From Alteromonas stellipolaris (lineage in GTDB: Bacteria; Pseudomonadota; Gammaproteobacteria; Enterobacterales; Alteromonadaceae), in assembly GCF_001562115.1 (NCBI RefSeq), contig NZ_CP013926.1, forward strand, positions 2,604,001 to 2,668,000: 64,000 nucleotides of DNA, in the 5' to 3' direction. This document shows positions 50,795-62,546 of this stretch, piece by piece (positions within the stretch are counted from its first letter, which is position 1; every line of letters starts with the position of its first letter). Made by a program: the position numbers and the translations under genes. A model generated the notes under the pieces. That model saw only the letters and a program-made list of their open reading frames with translations, ran no database searches and was not told where the DNA came from.

Positions 50795-51619
50795 ATGGAA
50801 ATGGATGAAATGAACATAGAATCAAAAGGATCTTTGGTAGTTGTAGGTACAGGTATTACTGTGTCAGGCCAGATGACCTTGATTACGGAAAGCCTACTTA
50901 AAACAGCCGATATCGTATTGAGCGTTGTAACAGAGTCAGCGCTTGTCAATCTGCAAATGATTAACTCGAATGTGGTGTGTTTACGCCACCTTTACGAGCA
51001 AGGCAAATCTCGGGCACTCACCTACCAAAAAATGACCCAACGCATTGTTGATGAAGTCAAGACAGGAAAAAAAGTGGTGGCGGCGTTTTATGGTCACCCT
51101 GGGGTATTCGTAAATCCCTCACATGAGGCTATCAAACAACTAAAAGAAGAAGGTTATGATGCCGAAATGCTACCGGGGATTTCTGCCGAAGATTGTTTAG
51201 TGGCTGATTTAGGGCTAGACCCCGCACATTATGGATGCCAGTCGTATGAGGCTACTCAGTTTCTGCTGAGGCAATACACCTTAGACCCTCATATGATGCA
51301 AATTATCTGGCAGATTGGCAGTATTGCCGATTTCACGCATAACAAACACCGTACATCACACCCGGGTTTAACGCAGCTAAGAAACGAATTGTTAAAATAC
51401 TTTTCTCCTGAACACACCATTATTGTTTATGAAGCCTCTACCATCCCCATTGCTGCCCCTAGAATTGAATACCTTGAACTAAAAGATTTAGCGGCAGTAA
51501 TACCAAAACCTATCACTACTTTGGTTATCCCCTCTAAAGGGTTACCAGATTTTGATATGAAATCGATGGCAGAACTAGATTTAACCCCCGCCCTTTTTGA
51601 ACAAAAATTATTTGGCTAA
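50795..51619 (+). CDS. Split-borosin alpha-N-methyltransferase (OphMA/SonM-type)
   Basis: This 274-residue tetrapyrrole-methylase-fold enzyme would methylate backbone amides of a ribosomal peptide using SAM. It shows SLVVVGTGITVSGQMTL, ADIVLSVVTES, the block AAFYGHPGVFVNPSHEAI, and MLPGISAEDCLVADLGLDP followed by GCQSYEATQFLLR. These blocks are characteristic of borosin methyltransferases. Unlike fungal OphMA it has no fused core peptide at the C-terminus; the precursor is the next gene, 41 bases downstream. The exact start is uncertain (50747, 50795 or 50810). Corrin or porphyrin methylation is unlikely, as no such pathway is nearby. Confidence 0.88.
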   Translation: MEMDEMNIESKGSLVVVGTGITVSGQMTLITESLLKTADIVLSVVTESALVNLQMINSNVVCLRHLYEQGKSRALTYQKMTQRIVDEVKTGKKVVAAFYGHPGVFVNPSHEAIKQLKEEGYDAEMLPGISAEDCLVADLGLDPAHYGCQSYEATQFLLRQYTLDPHMMQIIWQIGSIADFTHNKHRTSHPGLTQLRNELLKYFSPEHTIIVYEASTIPIAAPRIEYLELKDLAAVIPKPITTLVIPSKGLPDFDMKSMAELDLTPALFEQKLFG

Positions 51620-51660
51620 AACCGTAAATATCTAACCACAAAAAACTAAAGGAATAAGAA

Positions 51661-51870
51661 ATGAATGATTTGTTAGTAAAGTTTTTAATTGCTATGGATA
51701 AAGATGAAAAGTTAAAACAGCAATATATAAGCGATCCTAAAGGCACGGCTAAAGCGTTTGGTCTATCAGATGCAGACGTTCAAATATGTGCAAAAAACGA
51801 TGTTGATGCGATAAAGAGCCGATGTGAGGCTGAAGGCGCAGACACCCTAGAAATTAGTCACTCGAAATAG
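51661..51870 (+). CDS. Split-borosin precursor peptide (BBD + core)
   Basis: This 69-residue peptide starts behind AAGGAATAAG. The helical N-terminus (DLLVKFLIAMDKDEKLKQQYISDPKGTAKAFGLSDADV) matches the borosin binding domain/LigA-like precursor helices of split borosins. The tail ends TLEISHSK. In the Shewanella precursor SonA, as I recall it, the methylated tail contains LVISHG, so ISH at the same place marks the likely core. Methylation would fall on residues around Leu and Ile of this tail. The pairing with the adjacent methyltransferase is strong evidence. Confidence 0.85.
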   Translation: MNDLLVKFLIAMDKDEKLKQQYISDPKGTAKAFGLSDADVQICAKNDVDAIKSRCEAEGADTLEISHSK

Positions 51871-51900: not shown

Positions 51901-54690
51901 ATGAGATTGTTGCGTCTTTTGTGGGTAGTGCTTTTAGCACTGCCTAGCTTTTTTGTGTATTCTCAAGACGCTACTGTCGATATTGATAAGGTATTGCAAG
52001 CTGCCGATAAGAATGTATTTGTTAACCCAACCCTCGCAAAAAAGCTTCTTACCCAGGCCGAGAGGTACTTAGCAGACAAAGACCTTCCAGCCTATGAAGC
52101 TCATTTGCTCAATCTGAAAAGTCATTCGTACATTCTTGAGGGTAACTATAAACTCGCTTACGAAAAGGCAACCCAAGCAAAAAAGCTAGCCACAGAAACT
52201 GGTAACCAATTGCAACTTGCCGAAGCGTTAAGACGACAAGGGATAATAACTTACTTCTTTGATTTATATGGAGAATCATTAGAGTTACTACTTAACAGCC
52301 TGAGTATTCATCAGTCTTTAGATACCACCTACATACAAAACACGCTACAAGCCATTGGGAATTTGTACGCGAAATCGAATCAATGGGCAGATAACTTAAT
52401 AAATACCGGTGAACAACTGGTTGCCGAATCGATTAAACGTGGCAACACCTATTATGAAGAACAAGGGTACGGTTTTATTATATCTGGCTTATTGGCTAAG
52501 GGAAAAGTAACGCAAGCGAAGTCGTTAATAGACAGGGTAAATACTAACCCAGACGAGTTCGCGCCTATCTTAAATTTTTATTTGGCAAAAACGCATCTGC
52601 AATTAGGTAACTATGAAGAAGCGCTTGCGGTTACGGAAGATATTGTCAAGCATGCTGTCGCTGGAAAACACCGCCAGCGTGAGCTTTCTGGCCTCACGTT
52701 GCAGTCAGAGGTTTTACTCAAATTAGAACGCATTGATGAAGCCACACAAACGGTTTTGAGGTTCTTATCAATTGCACAAGATTTAGATATTACTGAATAC
52801 CAGTATGAAGGCTTAAAAATGCAAGCCAATATTGCGCTACTTCAAGGCCAATATCGCGATGCCTACCAATTTCTTTTACAACATTCAGAATTGAAGCAAC
52901 AAGTTTTTGATACGCGCCAATCAGAGCAATTAGCGTTTAATAGAGCCCGTTTAGAAACCGATCAAAAAATACAAAAAATTACTGAGTTAGAACTTAGTCA
53001 GCAACTGTCTGAACAAAATAGTACGTTTCAAGTGTACATCATTGTTACTATTTGCTGCGTGGCTATTCTTCTATTCTTTATGTTTGTTATCACGCTTAAA
53101 CAGAAGCGAGAATTGCGAGAGCTTGCGTTAAATTTACAAAAAGCCACCGACGCGAAGTCAGAGTTTTTGGCCCGTATGAGCCACGAAATTAGAACGCCCG
53201 TGAACGCCATAGTGGGGCTTACTAAGCTGACACAAAAATCTGTCGTTAATGAAGAACAGAAAACCAACCTAACCCAAATTGAGCAGTCGTCTCAAACCCT
53301 GCTAGGGGTAATTAACGACGTACTAGATTTTTCAAAAATTGAAGCGGGTAAACTTGATATTGAATCTGAGGCATTTGAACTCGACAAACTGGTTGAGCAA
53401 GTCATTCGGTTGCACGGGTTAAATGCCAGAGAGAAACGTATTGAATTATTACAATACGTGGCAAGAGATGTTCCCTTGCAAGTCTCTGGTGACGCCCTGC
53501 GTATTGAGCAAGTGCTGAATAACCTGCTAAGCAATGCGATTAAATTTACCGACGAAGGCATGGTGTTCGTATCGGTTAATAAAAAATATTCTGAACGCGG
53601 TGTTTTACTTGAGTTTTCAGTAAAAGATACGGGAATTGGCCTATCAACAGATCAGATAGAATCACTGTTCGATGCCTTTACGCAAGCTGACGAATCAATT
53701 ACCCGTAAATATGGTGGTACAGGTTTAGGCTTATCGATTTGTAAGCACCTTGTCTCGCTAATGGGCGGTGAAATATGGGTAGAGAGTAAGCTGGGTCAAG
53801 GCGCAACTTTCTTATTTACGGTGTTAGTTGAACAGCACAATCAAATGCCACAACCCACTACGTTAGGAAACTTAACCTTATCTGACTTAAAAGTGTTGGT
53901 GGTTGACGATGTTATGCTTTCAAGACAAGCAATAGCAGAAGCCCTGTTGCGCATCAATATAAACCCAGACTTGGCCACCGGTGGTAAAGAAGCGCTAATG
54001 CATCTACGTACCGCTATGGCAAGCAACGCACCGTACGATTTAATTATTATAGATTGGAAAATGGCGGATATTGATGGCATTGAATTAGCCTCAATTATTA
54101 ACCAAGAATTTAGCCAAGGTAAGCCGAACATAGCGATGCTTTCAGCTTATGATATCGAGTCACTTAAGACCCTCGGCCGCCCAGTGGGTGTAGAATATTA
54201 TCTGCAAAAACCGGTTAATAGCAGCTCGTTGCAGAACTGCTTACTAAGAATGTCTACTAGAGGTAAGCCTCAAATGGCGGCCTTAGAAAGCGATGCTAAT
54301 GTACCACCCGATTTTTCTAAGAAAAACATTCTGCTGGTAGAAGATGATGCGATAAACCGTAAAGTTGCTAAGCTATTTTTAGCCGATACAAAGGCAAAAG
54401 TGAGTGTTGCAGAAAATGGCTTAATTGCTTTGCAAATGTTGGAGCAAGAGAACGTCTTCGATCTTGTCTTAATGGATATGCAAATGCCTGTGATGGACGG
54501 CTTAACGGCAGCTCAAAAGATTCGAGAAGAATTAAAATTAGACGTTCCGATTGTGGCGATGACAGCTCACGCCATGCAAACAGAGATAGAAAAAAGCTTC
54601 GCCGTGGGTATGAATGCACACATTGTAAAACCCGTTAAGCCAGAATATTTGTATCAGGTCTTACAAGAGCAGTTTGTAAAAACACCCTAA
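51901..54690 (+). CDS. TPR-containing hybrid sensor histidine kinase
   Basis: This 929-residue kinase has a signal peptide ([17 protein letters not shown]), a periplasmic TPR-like helical region (about 30-370), one transmembrane helix ([22 protein letters not shown]), HisKA with phospho-acceptor His428 in [14 protein letters not shown], HATPase ([25 protein letters not shown]) and two receiver domains with phospho-acceptor Asp718 ([12 protein letters not shown]) and Asp859 ([13 protein letters not shown]). No output domain is present, so it must signal through a separate phosphotransfer partner. It begins 30 bases after the borosin precursor, hinting at co-regulation. Confidence 0.9.
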
Positions 54691-54856: not shown

Positions 54857-57322
54857 TTATATGGGCGAGCCTGGTGGCAAAGGCTTCACATCAAACGCCC
54901 CAGACCAATGACCTGATTTCCAGTAAGTGTCGAAATACTTATGCAAAACTTCATCTGCATCTCTATCGCTATCATCATCTAGCCACTCGTCGAACTCAAG
55001 CAGAGCACTGTGCATGGCCATTTTAGCCTCTGGTGCTAATGCAGGGTTTGTTGCAGCTTTCATGATGGCATTCAACGCTACTAACTGTAGGCGGGTAGCA
55101 ACTAAATCCTCTTTACCGCCGCGTTTGTGTTTCGCACGATACCAATGTACGTTCAATATTTGACGTACAAGCCCTTCCACACCCACGAGTTCTTTTGTGC
55201 GGCTACTTTGCCACGCCAAACGGTTTAAACGTTCTGGATGCAACAACAATGATAATGCGAAATCACTGGCAGATGCAGCCGCAGATACGGGGTCTAGCAT
55301 TAGCCCCATTTTTCCTTGAAAATGCTCGCGAGTAACATCGTCACCATAGGCAGTGGGCGGTATAAGTGCCAATACTGCTTCAGGAATAGCTAAATAAGGT
55401 ACGGTAGTAGCCGTTATAAGCTGCTGCATGGCACGTTGCTGTACTTGTGGCGCTACGTCTTGCTGGCCCTGTGGCGTGGTGTAATCACCTTTGCGCTCGT
55501 ATTCGTATATTAAGCCGCCCACTTGTTTTGCTACCGCTTCTAGTTGAAAACGATGCAGTAAATAAATTGGCACTAACGCATTTTCCAATGAAGACAAGCT
55601 AGCATTGGGCTTTAAGGTATCCATTCCTAATTGATCAAGCGCATGACGTCTAATCGCAGAGATTTCATCAAAAGCATCTAGCGGATCGGCGCCATTTTCC
55701 CACATGTGCCCGTTGGCTGAACTATGACGAGAGCTTCTTGTATCTGAATCTGACTTAAACGCCAGCCCTTTATTTCGGGTTTTAACAATTTGCTTAGCCA
55801 AGCCTTCCGTTTCTTCACTGGTTGAACCAAACTCTTGATAACCATAAACAATAGCGTGTTTGTCCCACGCGCCTATGCCCATATCGTAAGCCCCTTCAAG
55901 ACTTACTTTTCCGTCTTTTAAGGTAATTCGAGGGTGTGGATAATCCATCACAGAAGCCATTTCGTTTTCACTGGCAGCAAAGTTGTGCGCTATACCTAAG
56001 GTGTGGCCTACTTCATGAGCCGAAAGCTGCTTAATACGATCTAATGCCATTGCTTCTTGCTCTGGCGAACTCGCATTGTCACCTGAAAATGGGCTGGTAA
56101 GCCCTAGTGCGATTAAATAATCTTGGCGAACACGCAGTGAGCCCAACGTCACGTGGCCTTTTATAATTTCACCGGTGCGAGGGTCGACCACCGATGAACC
56201 ATACGACCACCCGCGGGTAGCGCGATGCACCCAATTAATCACGTTGTAACGTACATCCATAGGATCGGCATTTTCAGGCAACACTTTAACCTGGAATGCA
56301 TTTTTATAGCCTGCTGCTTCGAAGGCTTGGTTCCACCAGCTGGCGCCTTCTTTCAATGATGACATCACCGGCTCTGGAATACCTGGGTCTAGGTAATACA
56401 CAATAGGTTCAACCGCTTCGCTCATAGGAGCATGTGGCGATACCTTGGCTAAACGATGACGGGTAATAAAACGCTGCTCAGTAGGCTCATTAATTGCCGT
56501 TGAGTAATCGAAATAGCGGAATTTCCAATACCCTGAATAGGGATGATAAGCACGCGGTGTATAACCATCGTCAGGCAACGCAACAAATGAATGATGAAGG
56601 TGCACAGAAAGGTTCTCAGGATCTGGCGTGACATCAGATACATAGTTACCGGGCTTGCTGCCAGCGAATGTAACTAAGGCTTCGAGCTCAGTGTTTTTCT
56701 CAAAACCCTTTGTGCGCGATAAATACACCCCGCTTCTGTTTTTGTCTGCTTTAAAGCTGCCTTGATTTTTAGCTGACAACCGATTGCCAATACCATGAAT
56801 ATCGCTGAATAAAAAAGGTGTGTAATCGATTAAATTAGCGCTATCGCTCTTTGCCACTATGACAAAGCCGGCTAATACCGAACTTGCAAAGGCCTCATTA
56901 ATACTTTGCTTTTCGGCTGCGCTACCATGGGCTGCGCGGTACTTGGTATTTAACTGCTTCAGCATAAGCTTATTGCCAAAGCGTTCGAAGGTAATTAAGC
57001 GAGTGCGCCCTAACTGGCCTCTATCTAAACCAATATCGTTAGAGCCTACACCGTAAGGCAAGCTGCTTTGAAATAAAAACCGCTGCTCATCGTTGGGTAT
57101 CGATAAATACACTTTGTCAGTTTCATCATCATAATAGATGGGGATAAGCCCATCTTTAGTGGACATATCTTTGGTGAATTCGCTGATGGTAGGTAAGGCT
57201 GCCCATACCGGTGTCGCGAAAAATGTGGACACGACGACAACCATTAACCACCGAACAGCGCTAAATGAGAACGGCTTCTCACCCTTCGCCTTGTTATTAC
57301 CTTGTTTGTTTTCGACCAACAC
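54857..57322 (-). CDS. Zinc-dependent metalloprotease (DUF5117/DUF4953 type)
   Basis: This 821-residue exported protease has a signal segment (WLMVVVVSTFFATPVWA) and the extended zinc motif HEVGHTLGIAHNF (HExxHxxGxxH), followed by a Met-turn ASVMDYPHPR. That is the metzincin arrangement of the DUF4953/DUF5117 family. The N-terminal region has IPIYYDDETDKVYLSI and ends before an Ala-rich helical C-terminal part. It probably acts in the periplasm or outside the cell; its targets are unknown. Confidence 0.85.
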   Translation of the reverse strand: MLVENKQGNNKAKGEKPFSFSAVRWLMVVVVSTFFATPVWAALPTISEFTKDMSTKDGLIPIYYDDETDKVYLSIPNDEQRFLFQSSLPYGVGSNDIGLDRGQLGRTRLITFERFGNKLMLKQLNTKYRAAHGSAAEKQSINEAFASSVLAGFVIVAKSDSANLIDYTPFLFSDIHGIGNRLSAKNQGSFKADKNRSGVYLSRTKGFEKNTELEALVTFAGSKPGNYVSDVTPDPENLSVHLHHSFVALPDDGYTPRAYHPYSGYWKFRYFDYSTAINEPTEQRFITRHRLAKVSPHAPMSEAVEPIVYYLDPGIPEPVMSSLKEGASWWNQAFEAAGYKNAFQVKVLPENADPMDVRYNVINWVHRATRGWSYGSSVVDPRTGEIIKGHVTLGSLRVRQDYLIALGLTSPFSGDNASSPEQEAMALDRIKQLSAHEVGHTLGIAHNFAASENEMASVMDYPHPRITLKDGKVSLEGAYDMGIGAWDKHAIVYGYQEFGSTSEETEGLAKQIVKTRNKGLAFKSDSDTRSSRHSSANGHMWENGADPLDAFDEISAIRRHALDQLGMDTLKPNASLSSLENALVPIYLLHRFQLEAVAKQVGGLIYEYERKGDYTTPQGQQDVAPQVQQRAMQQLITATTVPYLAIPEAVLALIPPTAYGDDVTREHFQGKMGLMLDPVSAAASASDFALSLLLHPERLNRLAWQSSRTKELVGVEGLVRQILNVHWYRAKHKRGGKEDLVATRLQLVALNAIMKAATNPALAPEAKMAMHSALLEFDEWLDDDSDRDADEVLHKYFDTYWKSGHWSGAFDVKPLPPGSPI

Positions 57323-60680: not shown

Positions 60681-62546
60681 ATGAAAAAATTAGCGTTTTT
60701 AGCAGTTACGTTAAGCAGCTTATATGGCTGCGGTTCAGACAACAATGACGATGAGCAAACCACGAACGCCACATTAACATTCCCTGATGTTGATACCATT
60801 TCTGATGCAAATAATGATGCAAACAGCGATGGAAATGACGGCATCGATAACGATGAAAATACGGACAACAACAGAAACAATACAGATAACAACCAAAGAG
60901 GCAGATCTGCTCAGGGAATTGACGAAGATGTAGACCAACAACGTCGCAACAGTCGTGATAGAGAAGGTAGAGACGACTTTGTCTTCAATACTCAAGGGGG
61001 TAGAGAAATACGCTCCTATGATGGCAGTAGTAACAATCAAGATAACCCTGATTGGGGTGCTACCTTTAGTCACCTGCAACGTATAGCACCAGCTTTTTAC
61101 ACCGATGGCGTGTCAGAAATGGCAGGTTCAGCACAAAAAAGTGCTAGGGAAATCAGTAACTTGCTAGTGATGCAGGCTGAAGGTGAGAGTATACCCAATA
61201 CGTATAACACCAGTGATTACTTATGGCAGTGGGGGCAGTTTATCGACCACGATATAAGCCTTACAGACGGAAGTACCTTAGAAGCGGAACACATCATTGT
61301 GCCGTCAGGCGATGTGTTTTTCGACCCTAGCGGTACAGGTAGTGTCACTATTTCATTTAATCGTGCAATTTATGACCCTGACACAGGTACCAGTACGAAT
61401 AACGTTCGTGAACAGGAAAATGAAATTACGAGCTGGATTGATGGCTCGATGATTTATGGTTCTGATACCGAACGTAATGAGGAGTTGCGTGAAGGGGATC
61501 AGTCGCCCTTCTTAGCCACTTCTGACAATAACTTATTGCCACGAAACCCTAACGGGTTACCTAATGCAAATGGCTTTGTATCCGACCCAAGTATGTTATT
61601 TCTAGGTGGAGACGTTCGAGTAAACGAACAAGCCATACTTACCGCTATGCATACCGTATGGGTAAGAGAGCACAACCGCATTGCGGCTATATTACAAGCT
61701 CAACAGCCACAAGCAGATGTTGAAGATATATACGAGCAAACTAGGCGTCTTGTTATTGCCAAATTGCAGATAATTACCTATGACGAGTACCTACCTGCTT
61801 TGTTGGGCGAAAACACAATGCCTGACTATCAAGGCTATGATGATGACGTAAATCCTACTACGTACAATGAGTTTTCAACCGCAGCCTATCGGCTTGGTCA
61901 TAGCGAAGTCAGCAACAATATACTTCGCTTAGATGCCGACAATAATCCAATAGATGAAGGCAGCTTGGCGCTTCGTGACGCCTTTTTTACAGGAATAGGA
62001 CTGTACGTTGAAGAAGATGATATTGACTCAGTGCTTCGTGGCTTGGCGAAACAACGTCATCAAGCTATCGATATTAAAGTGGTAAATGGACTACGTAACT
62101 TTCTCTTTGGCCGACCTGGCAGCGGCGGTTTTGATCTTATCTCTTTGAATATTCAGCGGGGACGCGATCATGGGCTAGCATCCTATAATGATGTTCGCGA
62201 AGCCATGGGCTTTGAGCGTGCTGAATTTTTCAGTGATATTACTTCAAACACCACACTGCAAACGGCATTGTCCAACGCCTACAATTCAGTTGATGATGTA
62301 GAGCTATGGATAGGCGGGTTATCTGAAGACCCTCAAACTGAAACGGGTTCTCAGTTAGGTGAGTTATTTACTGCTATCAATGTTAAGCAGTTCGACGAAC
62401 TACGCGAAGGCGACCGTTTTTGGTATCAAAGATACTTGTCCAATGACGAGCTCGAATTGGTAGAAGGCACCACACTAGCTGAGGTGATTCGAGCGAATAC
62501 CAACATTGGTAACGAACTACAATCCGAGGTTTTCTATGTAGAGTAA
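60681..62546 (+). CDS. Animal-type haem peroxidase lipoprotein
   Basis: This 621-residue protein has a lipobox (SLYGC, Cys17), an Asp/Asn-rich linker (about 25-100, disordered, calcium-binding in style) and a peroxidasin-like catalytic domain: distal His in LWQWGQFIDHDISLTDG, an Arg in WVREHNRIA, proximal His in AYRLGHSEVSNNILRLD, and NIQRGRDHGLASYNDVREAMGF. Such enzymes oxidise halides or phenols with hydrogen peroxide. As a lipoprotein it is tethered to a membrane, probably facing outward. Upstream repeats suggest control. Confidence 0.87.
   Translation: MKKLAFLAVTLSSLYGCGSDNNDDEQTTNATLTFPDVDTISDANNDANSDGNDGIDNDENTDNNRNNTDNNQRGRSAQGIDEDVDQQRRNSRDREGRDDFVFNTQGGREIRSYDGSSNNQDNPDWGATFSHLQRIAPAFYTDGVSEMAGSAQKSAREISNLLVMQAEGESIPNTYNTSDYLWQWGQFIDHDISLTDGSTLEAEHIIVPSGDVFFDPSGTGSVTISFNRAIYDPDTGTSTNNVREQENEITSWIDGSMIYGSDTERNEELREGDQSPFLATSDNNLLPRNPNGLPNANGFVSDPSMLFLGGDVRVNEQAILTAMHTVWVREHNRIAAILQAQQPQADVEDIYEQTRRLVIAKLQIITYDEYLPALLGENTMPDYQGYDDDVNPTTYNEFSTAAYRLGHSEVSNNILRLDADNNPIDEGSLALRDAFFTGIGLYVEEDDIDSVLRGLAKQRHQAIDIKVVNGLRNFLFGRPGSGGFDLISLNIQRGRDHGLASYNDVREAMGFERAEFFSDITSNTTLQTALSNAYNSVDDVELWIGGLSEDPQTETGSQLGELFTAINVKQFDELREGDRFWYQRYLSNDELELVEGTTLAEVIRANTNIGNELQSEVFYVE

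Follow-up and report, generated by a model that had tools for sequence, protein, structure and literature searches.

A split borosin locus with a TPR-sensor hybrid histidine kinase as genomic partner in Alteromonas stellipolaris

Split borosins raise a question of purpose: according to PMC8429565, no type IV pathway was yet tied to a final natural product. The question recurs at a locus in the 64,000-nucleotide stretch of Alteromonas stellipolaris DNA analysed here (the window), where three genes on the + strand encode a methyltransferase, a small precursor and a sensor kinase. A sensor held beside such a pair across genera makes the question of what split borosins are for directly testable.

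The methyltransferase and its precursor

The first gene (50795-51619) encodes a borosin-type alpha-N-methyltransferase of 274 aa, an open frame whose product contains YGHPGVFVNPSHEAI and MLPGISAEDCLVADLGLDP and whose start codon is uncertain (the frame is open from 50747, extending back to an ATG there, and further ATGs lie at 50801 and 50810). Pfam places the product in TP_methylase (E 4.4e-18), the superfamily common to borosin and porphyrin enzymes. In the PDB, SonM was the top match (E 3.6e-57), followed by dbOphMA, OphMA and MroMA (6e-51 to 3e-44), and siroheme synthase was the sole porphyrin enzyme among the matches listed (E 6e-4). An earlier note on this DNA had assigned the gene to the backbone alpha-N-methyltransferases of the omphalotin/borosin class; the profile search bears this out, with SonM and OphMA in the lead, porphyrin and corrin enzymes far behind, and no corrin or porphyrin methylase as best match. 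The NCBIfam porphyrin models scored 19.6-46.4 bits against cut-offs of 163-525, and weak paralogues of the enzyme are present at other sites in the genome. Among eight SonM active-site residues checked by alignment, seven are retained (Y67, R73, Y77, Y99, F105, E152, and W172, corresponding to SonM Y58, R67, Y71, Y93, F99, E146, and W166); altering Y58, R67, Y71, or Y93 has a kinetic effect in SonM (PMC8429565). The eighth, SonM Q178, is replaced by K184 at a position that varies among the 14 sequences compared. The chain stops after the catalytic domain and is thus a discrete enzyme with no fused core.

The second gene (51661-51870) starts after a gap of 41 bp and is an open frame for a split borosin precursor of 69 aa with the C-terminus TLEISHSK. 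As a single sequence it matches SonA weakly (E 0.02), whereas a profile of the window's clade, made from 7 sequences without any Shewanella-like ones and so a fair test of likeness to SonA, has SonA chains alone among its matches at E 1 or better, the best of them at E 3e-4. Another precursor profile, A5, reaches SonA at 1e-24, a value that is partly circular given the Shewanella-like precursors inside A5, and its lower rows are chance matches to repeat proteins. The AF2 model of the precursor (pLDDT 83.8) has five helices (residues 4-14, 16-24, 26-33, 37-44, and 48-57) forming a predicted borosin-binding domain (51670-51831) with the fold of the corresponding SonA/OphMA domain; Foldseek returned SonA chains in all of its top 26 rows, at E values of only 0.16-1. 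The earlier description of this gene as a separate precursor with a borosin-binding-domain leader therefore agrees both with the profile match and with the predicted fold, the prediction for the precursor alone being the five-helix SonA bundle. The computable checks set beforehand, as far as run, favoured the split-borosin reading, and the two genes almost certainly form a methyltransferase/substrate pair. Across 6/6 close species, the window's included, the pair is present with a gap of 39-43 bp and enzymes 90-100% identical; because of this retention, and because substitutions in the precursor gene among these species are mostly synonymous, the pair is more than chance open frames.

The tail TLEISHSK (residues 62-69, 51844-51867) is the predicted core. 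Its L63 (51847-51849) and I65 (51853-51855) align in register with the residues methylated in SonA, likewise L63 and I65 (PMC8429565, PMC11285071), so that N-methylation of the tail at these predicted sites is quite probable. The segment LEISHSK is identical in all six close species, with only synonymous codon changes. Since both SonA-methylated residues are conserved in place, the methylation pattern may well equal that of SonA; the earlier proposal that the mature product may be new retains its footing in a tail that differs from SonA's, and loses some at these two conserved sites. No export signal is evident from reading the precursor sequence, in which residues 4-14 make up helix 1 of the modelled binding domain.

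A third gene and the conservation of its linkage

The third gene (51901-54690), which went unmentioned in the earlier note, lies 30 bp behind the precursor gene and encodes a TPR-sensor hybrid histidine kinase of 929 aa, as recognised by Pfam, hydropathy, and AF2. From its N-terminus, the protein comprises a hydrophobic, signal-peptide-like stretch, a TPR solenoid, one transmembrane segment, HisKA, HATPase_c, and two receiver domains. Hydropathy and AF2 place a predicted periplasmic TPR sensor at about residues 22-379 (51964-53037), ahead of a predicted transmembrane segment at residues 380-398 (53038-53094; Kyte-Doolittle window 3.07), and AF2 models a helical-repeat solenoid with helix pairs in residues 28-335, mostly at pLDDT 80-96. 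A PDB sequence search with the sensor part gave no match; a Foldseek search with the whole chain as query, rather than the sensor alone, had kinase chains only in its best 50 of 1,535 rows. An Rfam search at the locus gave no match. A hairpin of 11 pairs (two of them G-U) can be drawn at 51922-51946, within the signal-peptide codons of the kinase, and is followed in the window by a T run; a similar stem is predicted in the close species, and the full T run is not conserved.

Which genes belong to the unit was judged by a linkage test in which the unit's three genes and 15 further ones from the window, 18 altogether, were compared with 23 large loci: five from close species, eleven from elsewhere in Alteromonas, and seven from four additional genera of the family. 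Neighbours were searched by tblastn (E 1e-10 or better, 40% coverage) over about 8 kb on each side, L108 offering only 13 kb. The kinase was present in 23/23 loci, around enzymes 48-99% identical to the window's, and its match began 1.1-1.6 kb from the enzyme start. Beyond the close species, 18 loci remain, and the search detected none of the 15 other genes in any of them. These genes, drawn from 40.9 to 64 kb of the window, were rejected as parts of the unit; they include SDR, carbonic-anhydrase-like, and lipoprotein genes upstream, and met-zincin, aminotransferase, and saccharopine-dehydrogenase genes downstream. The met-zincin gene (54857-57322, - strand; PF16313, E 9e-56; DUF5117/DUF4953) is large and stands beside the locus in 5/5 close-species loci; it was not found in the 18 more distant ones (tblastn E 1e-10, about 8 kb each side) and, being confined to the close species, was not counted to the unit. 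The earlier statement that no protease is visible nearby was, in view of this gene, incomplete. Farther off in the window, 60681-62546 encodes a member of the animal-haem-peroxidase family (PF03098, E 3e-147), whose N-terminus looks, by eye, like that of a lipoprotein.

Wider sampling, with the next gene defined as at least 250 aa, brought in 20 more large loci, taken from one additional genus of the family and from different families within the order. The same layout recurred in 19 of them; in L159, the remaining one, a second methyltransferase comes before the GGDEF protein. Altogether, the downstream gene had a TM-like stretch in 42/43 large loci, with a sensor of ~330-410 aa ahead of it in 42/42 and an N-terminal hydrophobic stretch in 37/42. 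Pfam identified HisKA plus HATPase in 28/29 downstream proteins and HATPase in 4/4 of a second set, and GGDEF in 9/10 from the Shewanella-like family f6, where the L171 gene is in two pieces, the second of them matching the GGDEF end of its relatives. Of 44 loci centred on other enzymes (37-46% identity; L159 is included once more), 39 had a gene of 250 aa or longer downstream, and 38 of these 39 matched GGDEF in Pfam. TPR_12 was matched by 28/29 and 4/4 downstream proteins of the kinase sets, 9/10 of f6, and 13/39 of the other-type loci.

Taken together, 79 of 87 distinct loci, including the window, have a kinase or GGDEF match downstream (kinase in the window's clade), a figure that does not stand for 79 independent events, as linked loci share descent. 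Cut or split loci among the 87 are L156, L171, L032, L029, L030, and L033 (the last three with sensor matches), and L031 and L138 have GGDEF stretches only; loci with flanks of just 1.5 kb, such as L079-L088, are left out of the downstream-gene counts. Outside the 87, the Shewanella-like L144, L148, L150, and L152 have a downstream frame with a GGDEF/GGEEF motif, recognised by pattern only. As background, the genome holds 62 GGDEF and 48 HisKA matches, six of them in ORFs that also match TPR_12, an undercount in that the scan overlooks the window's own kinase. Chance adjacency of pair and sensor is therefore a poor explanation, kin though the loci are. Separately, in L031 the GGDEF stretch comes straight after the methyltransferase and sensor and precursor were not found, which may mark a truncated locus, and inspection by eye of L184, L187, L190, L191, and L192 (outside the order or with short flanks, and uncounted) showed small ORFs and cut or TPR-like neighbours in some.

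Sensor classes, distribution, and history

The kinase-type and GGDEF-type partners share a sensor-plus-TM layout and not their cytoplasmic domains. HHalign profile pairs of the two sensor types gave 98.9-100%, a result weighed against 15 unlinked TPR proteins of the same genome as controls. On the A4 GGDEF-sensor profile, 26/29 kinase sensors scored above every control, compared with 13/29 on the A2 GGDEF-sensor profile; conversely, 2/10 A2 sensors exceeded the controls on the kinase profile, where controls reach 111. Between the GGDEF types, 10/10 A2 sensors passed on the A4 profile (scores 150-221 vs controls at most 76.5) and 34/39 A4 sensors on the A2 profile. With these controls, the signs of homology between kinase and GGDEF sensors beyond their TPR repeats are mixed, and the claim appears weaker than it first did.

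Judged by its close relatives, MMG017, A. lipotrueae, and 1_MG-2023, the genome falls within Alteromonas. Borosin-type enzymes (E 1e-20 or better) occur in 52/59 Alteromonas genomes and, in samples that overlap, in 119/295 genomes of the family, 95/394 of the order, and 15/398 of the phylum. The 61 matches in the genus comprise 6 at 90-100% identity, 19 at 50-56%, and 36 at 36-43%. A SonA-like precursor adjoins all 25 closer enzymes, and every genus genome whose enzyme reaches 50% (25/25) has a sensor match beside it. Among the other 34 genomes, three have a strong sensor match but no enzyme, 28 have no sensor match, and three have a weak one, in two cases next to an enzyme at 37-41%.

Three of the 59 genus genomes, G014, G055, and G033 (loci L181, L182, and L183, respectively), carry an intact kinase with neither enzyme nor precursor. 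Where G010 (L092) has 972 bp, G033 and G055 have 35 bp, between flanks 88-95% identical to those of G010. Of the pair, 16 bp from the start of the enzyme gene and 60 bp from the end of the precursor gene are still in place, and the kinase frame behind the deletion is open at 1106 aa. Judged from these alignments, the pair was deleted as one piece in G033 and G055 and the kinase stayed. Because remnants of both gene ends persist, pair and kinase were once together there; and because 972 bp holding the pair are gone from two genomes that keep the kinase, the sensor can exist without the peptide. L182 and L183 also differ from G010 at other places farther out in the loci. For the sensor part, dN/dS was 0.12-0.21 in the kinase-only comparisons L092-L182, L092-L183, and L182-L183, 0.081 in L092-L181, and 0.02-0.07 in four enzyme-bearing pairs, a comparison confounded by unequal dS and, in L181, by a shortened frame; on these values, purifying selection on the solo kinases looks somewhat weaker.

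In a tree of 83 enzymes, the kinase-linked loci all fall in one clade (33 rows, support 100/99), while SonM lies within a GGDEF-linked Shewanella-like clade (11 rows, 100/97) and the window's enzyme stands beside, not inside, that clade. L159 forms a long branch adjoining the kinase clade with weaker support (89/77). Mapped with four labels, of which SonM received one of its own, its locus being unlabelled by output, the sensor class changes 3 times on the tree, the minimum possible, vs a shuffled mean of 28.5. This pattern fits a single switch between the kinase and cyclase outputs, the link to the pair being preserved in both lines.

Proposed function and comparison with known systems

The function of the locus may be pictured in two steps. 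In the first, the enzyme would bind the five-helix leader of the precursor and N-methylate backbone amides of the tail, most likely at L63 and I65; the homology behind this step is strong, and the reaction itself is a prediction from it. In the second, the methylated precursor, or a tail peptide released from it, would act on the TPR sensor, and the kinase would pass the signal to its receiver domains, a step that we infer from the conserved linkage. Related loci have the same arrangement, in which the last gene encodes a membrane sensor that carries a diguanylate cyclase domain. The persistence of a sensor beside such pairs in relatives points to a role of the modified peptide in signalling. 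A functional tie between sensor and peptide is fairly likely, and we lean slightly towards reading both steps together, with the three genes as one peptide-modification plus sensor module; that the methylated tail is itself the ligand of the sensor is put forward tentatively. Since no export signal is evident in the precursor, an export step would be needed for it to meet a sensor predicted to lie in the periplasm. If the tail binds and switches the neighbouring sensor, backbone N-methylation would be a way to a durable bacterial peptide signal. More speculatively still, split borosins of marine Gammaproteobacteria might be self-contained signalling modules rather than free natural-product clusters. 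The methylated tail would then be a ligand dedicated to a TPR-like transmembrane receptor, which would signal through a kinase in one enzyme clade and through a diguanylate cyclase in the remaining ones, and strains left with the kinase alone would be listeners or relics.

Regulators are common in RiPP clusters, and the locus could instead be an ordinary split borosin natural product pathway, in which the tail is cut out and exported, while the kinase does no more than regulate the cluster or respond to an unrelated cue. We regard this as somewhat unlikely. It would accommodate the kinase-only loci that persist after loss of the pair and the distant likeness of the two sensor classes, but it would lead one to expect neither a tail invariant in 6/6 species, unlike a diversifying weapon, nor, in each of the enzyme clades sampled, a following sensor whose output is a kinase or GGDEF domain. 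The neighbours tested also include no protease, exporter, or further tailoring gene that has stayed with the window's clade.

A Shewanella borosin precursor is reported to be cut by shewasin A. Pepsin-like proteases (PF00026) occur in 10/59 genus genomes, and in each of these one lies upstream of a 38-43% enzyme, at a distance of up to about 0.7 kb (for example, G042:C1:1510717-1512748 and G058:C105:7848-9874); PF00026 was not found in the window genome, and a pepsin-like leader protease was accordingly rejected for the window's unit. GNAT-like genes, recognised by eye, stand beside many other-type enzymes (L029, L033, L038, L043, L045, L046, L055, and L133-L151) and may serve in tailoring. 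Tandem methyltransferases, 47-49% identical to the window's enzyme, precede one precursor in L075 and L076/L108 (G086, G129), with a sensor kinase behind methyltransferases and precursor in L108, and in L112 one enzyme is followed by two different SonA-like precursors with the tails GLMLTIHS and AILGFFNQ.

No exporter or leader protease was seen in the window's unit. The lack of a leader protease there and of PF00026 in the window genome, together with a precursor sequence in which no export signal is evident, would suit a reading in which the uncut, methylated 69-residue precursor is a cytoplasmic partner whose stiffened tail docks on the cytoplasmic part of the kinase or on another protein, while the TPR domain senses something else; we judge this quite unlikely, as what the partner types have in common is the sensor-plus-TM layout and not the cytoplasmic domains. 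Finally, a uroporphyrinogen/precorrin methylase as the product of the first gene, next to an unrelated small gene, is scarcely credible: the tetrapyrrole identity shares the TP_methylase superfamily with the enzyme but was rejected, given matches of 4e-57 to 3e-44 to SonM, OphMA, and MroMA vs 6e-4 to siroheme synthase, NCBIfam porphyrin scores far under cut-off, retained active-site tyrosines and R73, and weak paralogues that sit elsewhere in the genome.

The enzyme-precursor pair itself is of a known kind, the split borosin. Its nearest described counterpart is SonM/SonA, the type IV split borosin of Shewanella oneidensis (PMC8429565), which has the same gene order, a separate enzyme, and a precursor of ~70 aa, and with which it shares the catalytic residues, the five-helix binding domain, and the L63/I65 register. 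The window's enzyme, however, is 41% identical to SonM, lies outside the SonM clade, and has Lys in place of Q178, and its tail TLEISHSK differs from SonA's YLVISH plus four residues, with Glu64 between the two sites. In L167/L147, with an enzyme at 98.5% identity to SonM, the gene that follows encodes a TPR-GGDEF sensor protein, in contrast to the hybrid kinase of the window. The fungal borosins OphMA, dbOphMA, and MroMA1 are alike in methyltransferase fold and binding domain, yet their core is fused to the enzyme, whereas the window has separate chains. Other split borosins of the genus (36-43% enzymes) consist of an enzyme, a small ORF with an acidic or proline-rich tail by eye, and a sensor with GGDEF output; their tails differ, and they bring the pepsin-like protease (in those 10/59 genomes) and, in many cases, GNAT-like genes by eye, none of which is in the window's unit. 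A GGDEF domain is named in a figure legend on borosin architectures (PMC11395268), and the GGDEF link is thus at least partly in print already. For a hybrid kinase as borosin partner, no mention was found in the open literature searched, a scope that did not extend to the main split-borosin surveys; within that scope, the locus is a split borosin with a TPR hybrid kinase as partner whose kinase version is apparently unreported.

A further likeness is to the RRNPP pairs of Firmicutes, in which TPR domains bind short peptides encoded next door (PMC4873490): there, too, a short peptide gene lies beside a TPR receptor gene, as 51661-51870 lies beside 51901-54690. RRNPP receptors are cytoplasmic and their peptides unmodified, whereas the window encodes a predicted membrane kinase, with an N-terminal hydrophobic stretch and one TM by hydropathy, and a tail predicted to be backbone-methylated. 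The likeness is thus one of resemblance, not membership, with the kinase as a putative receptor for the precursor peptide.
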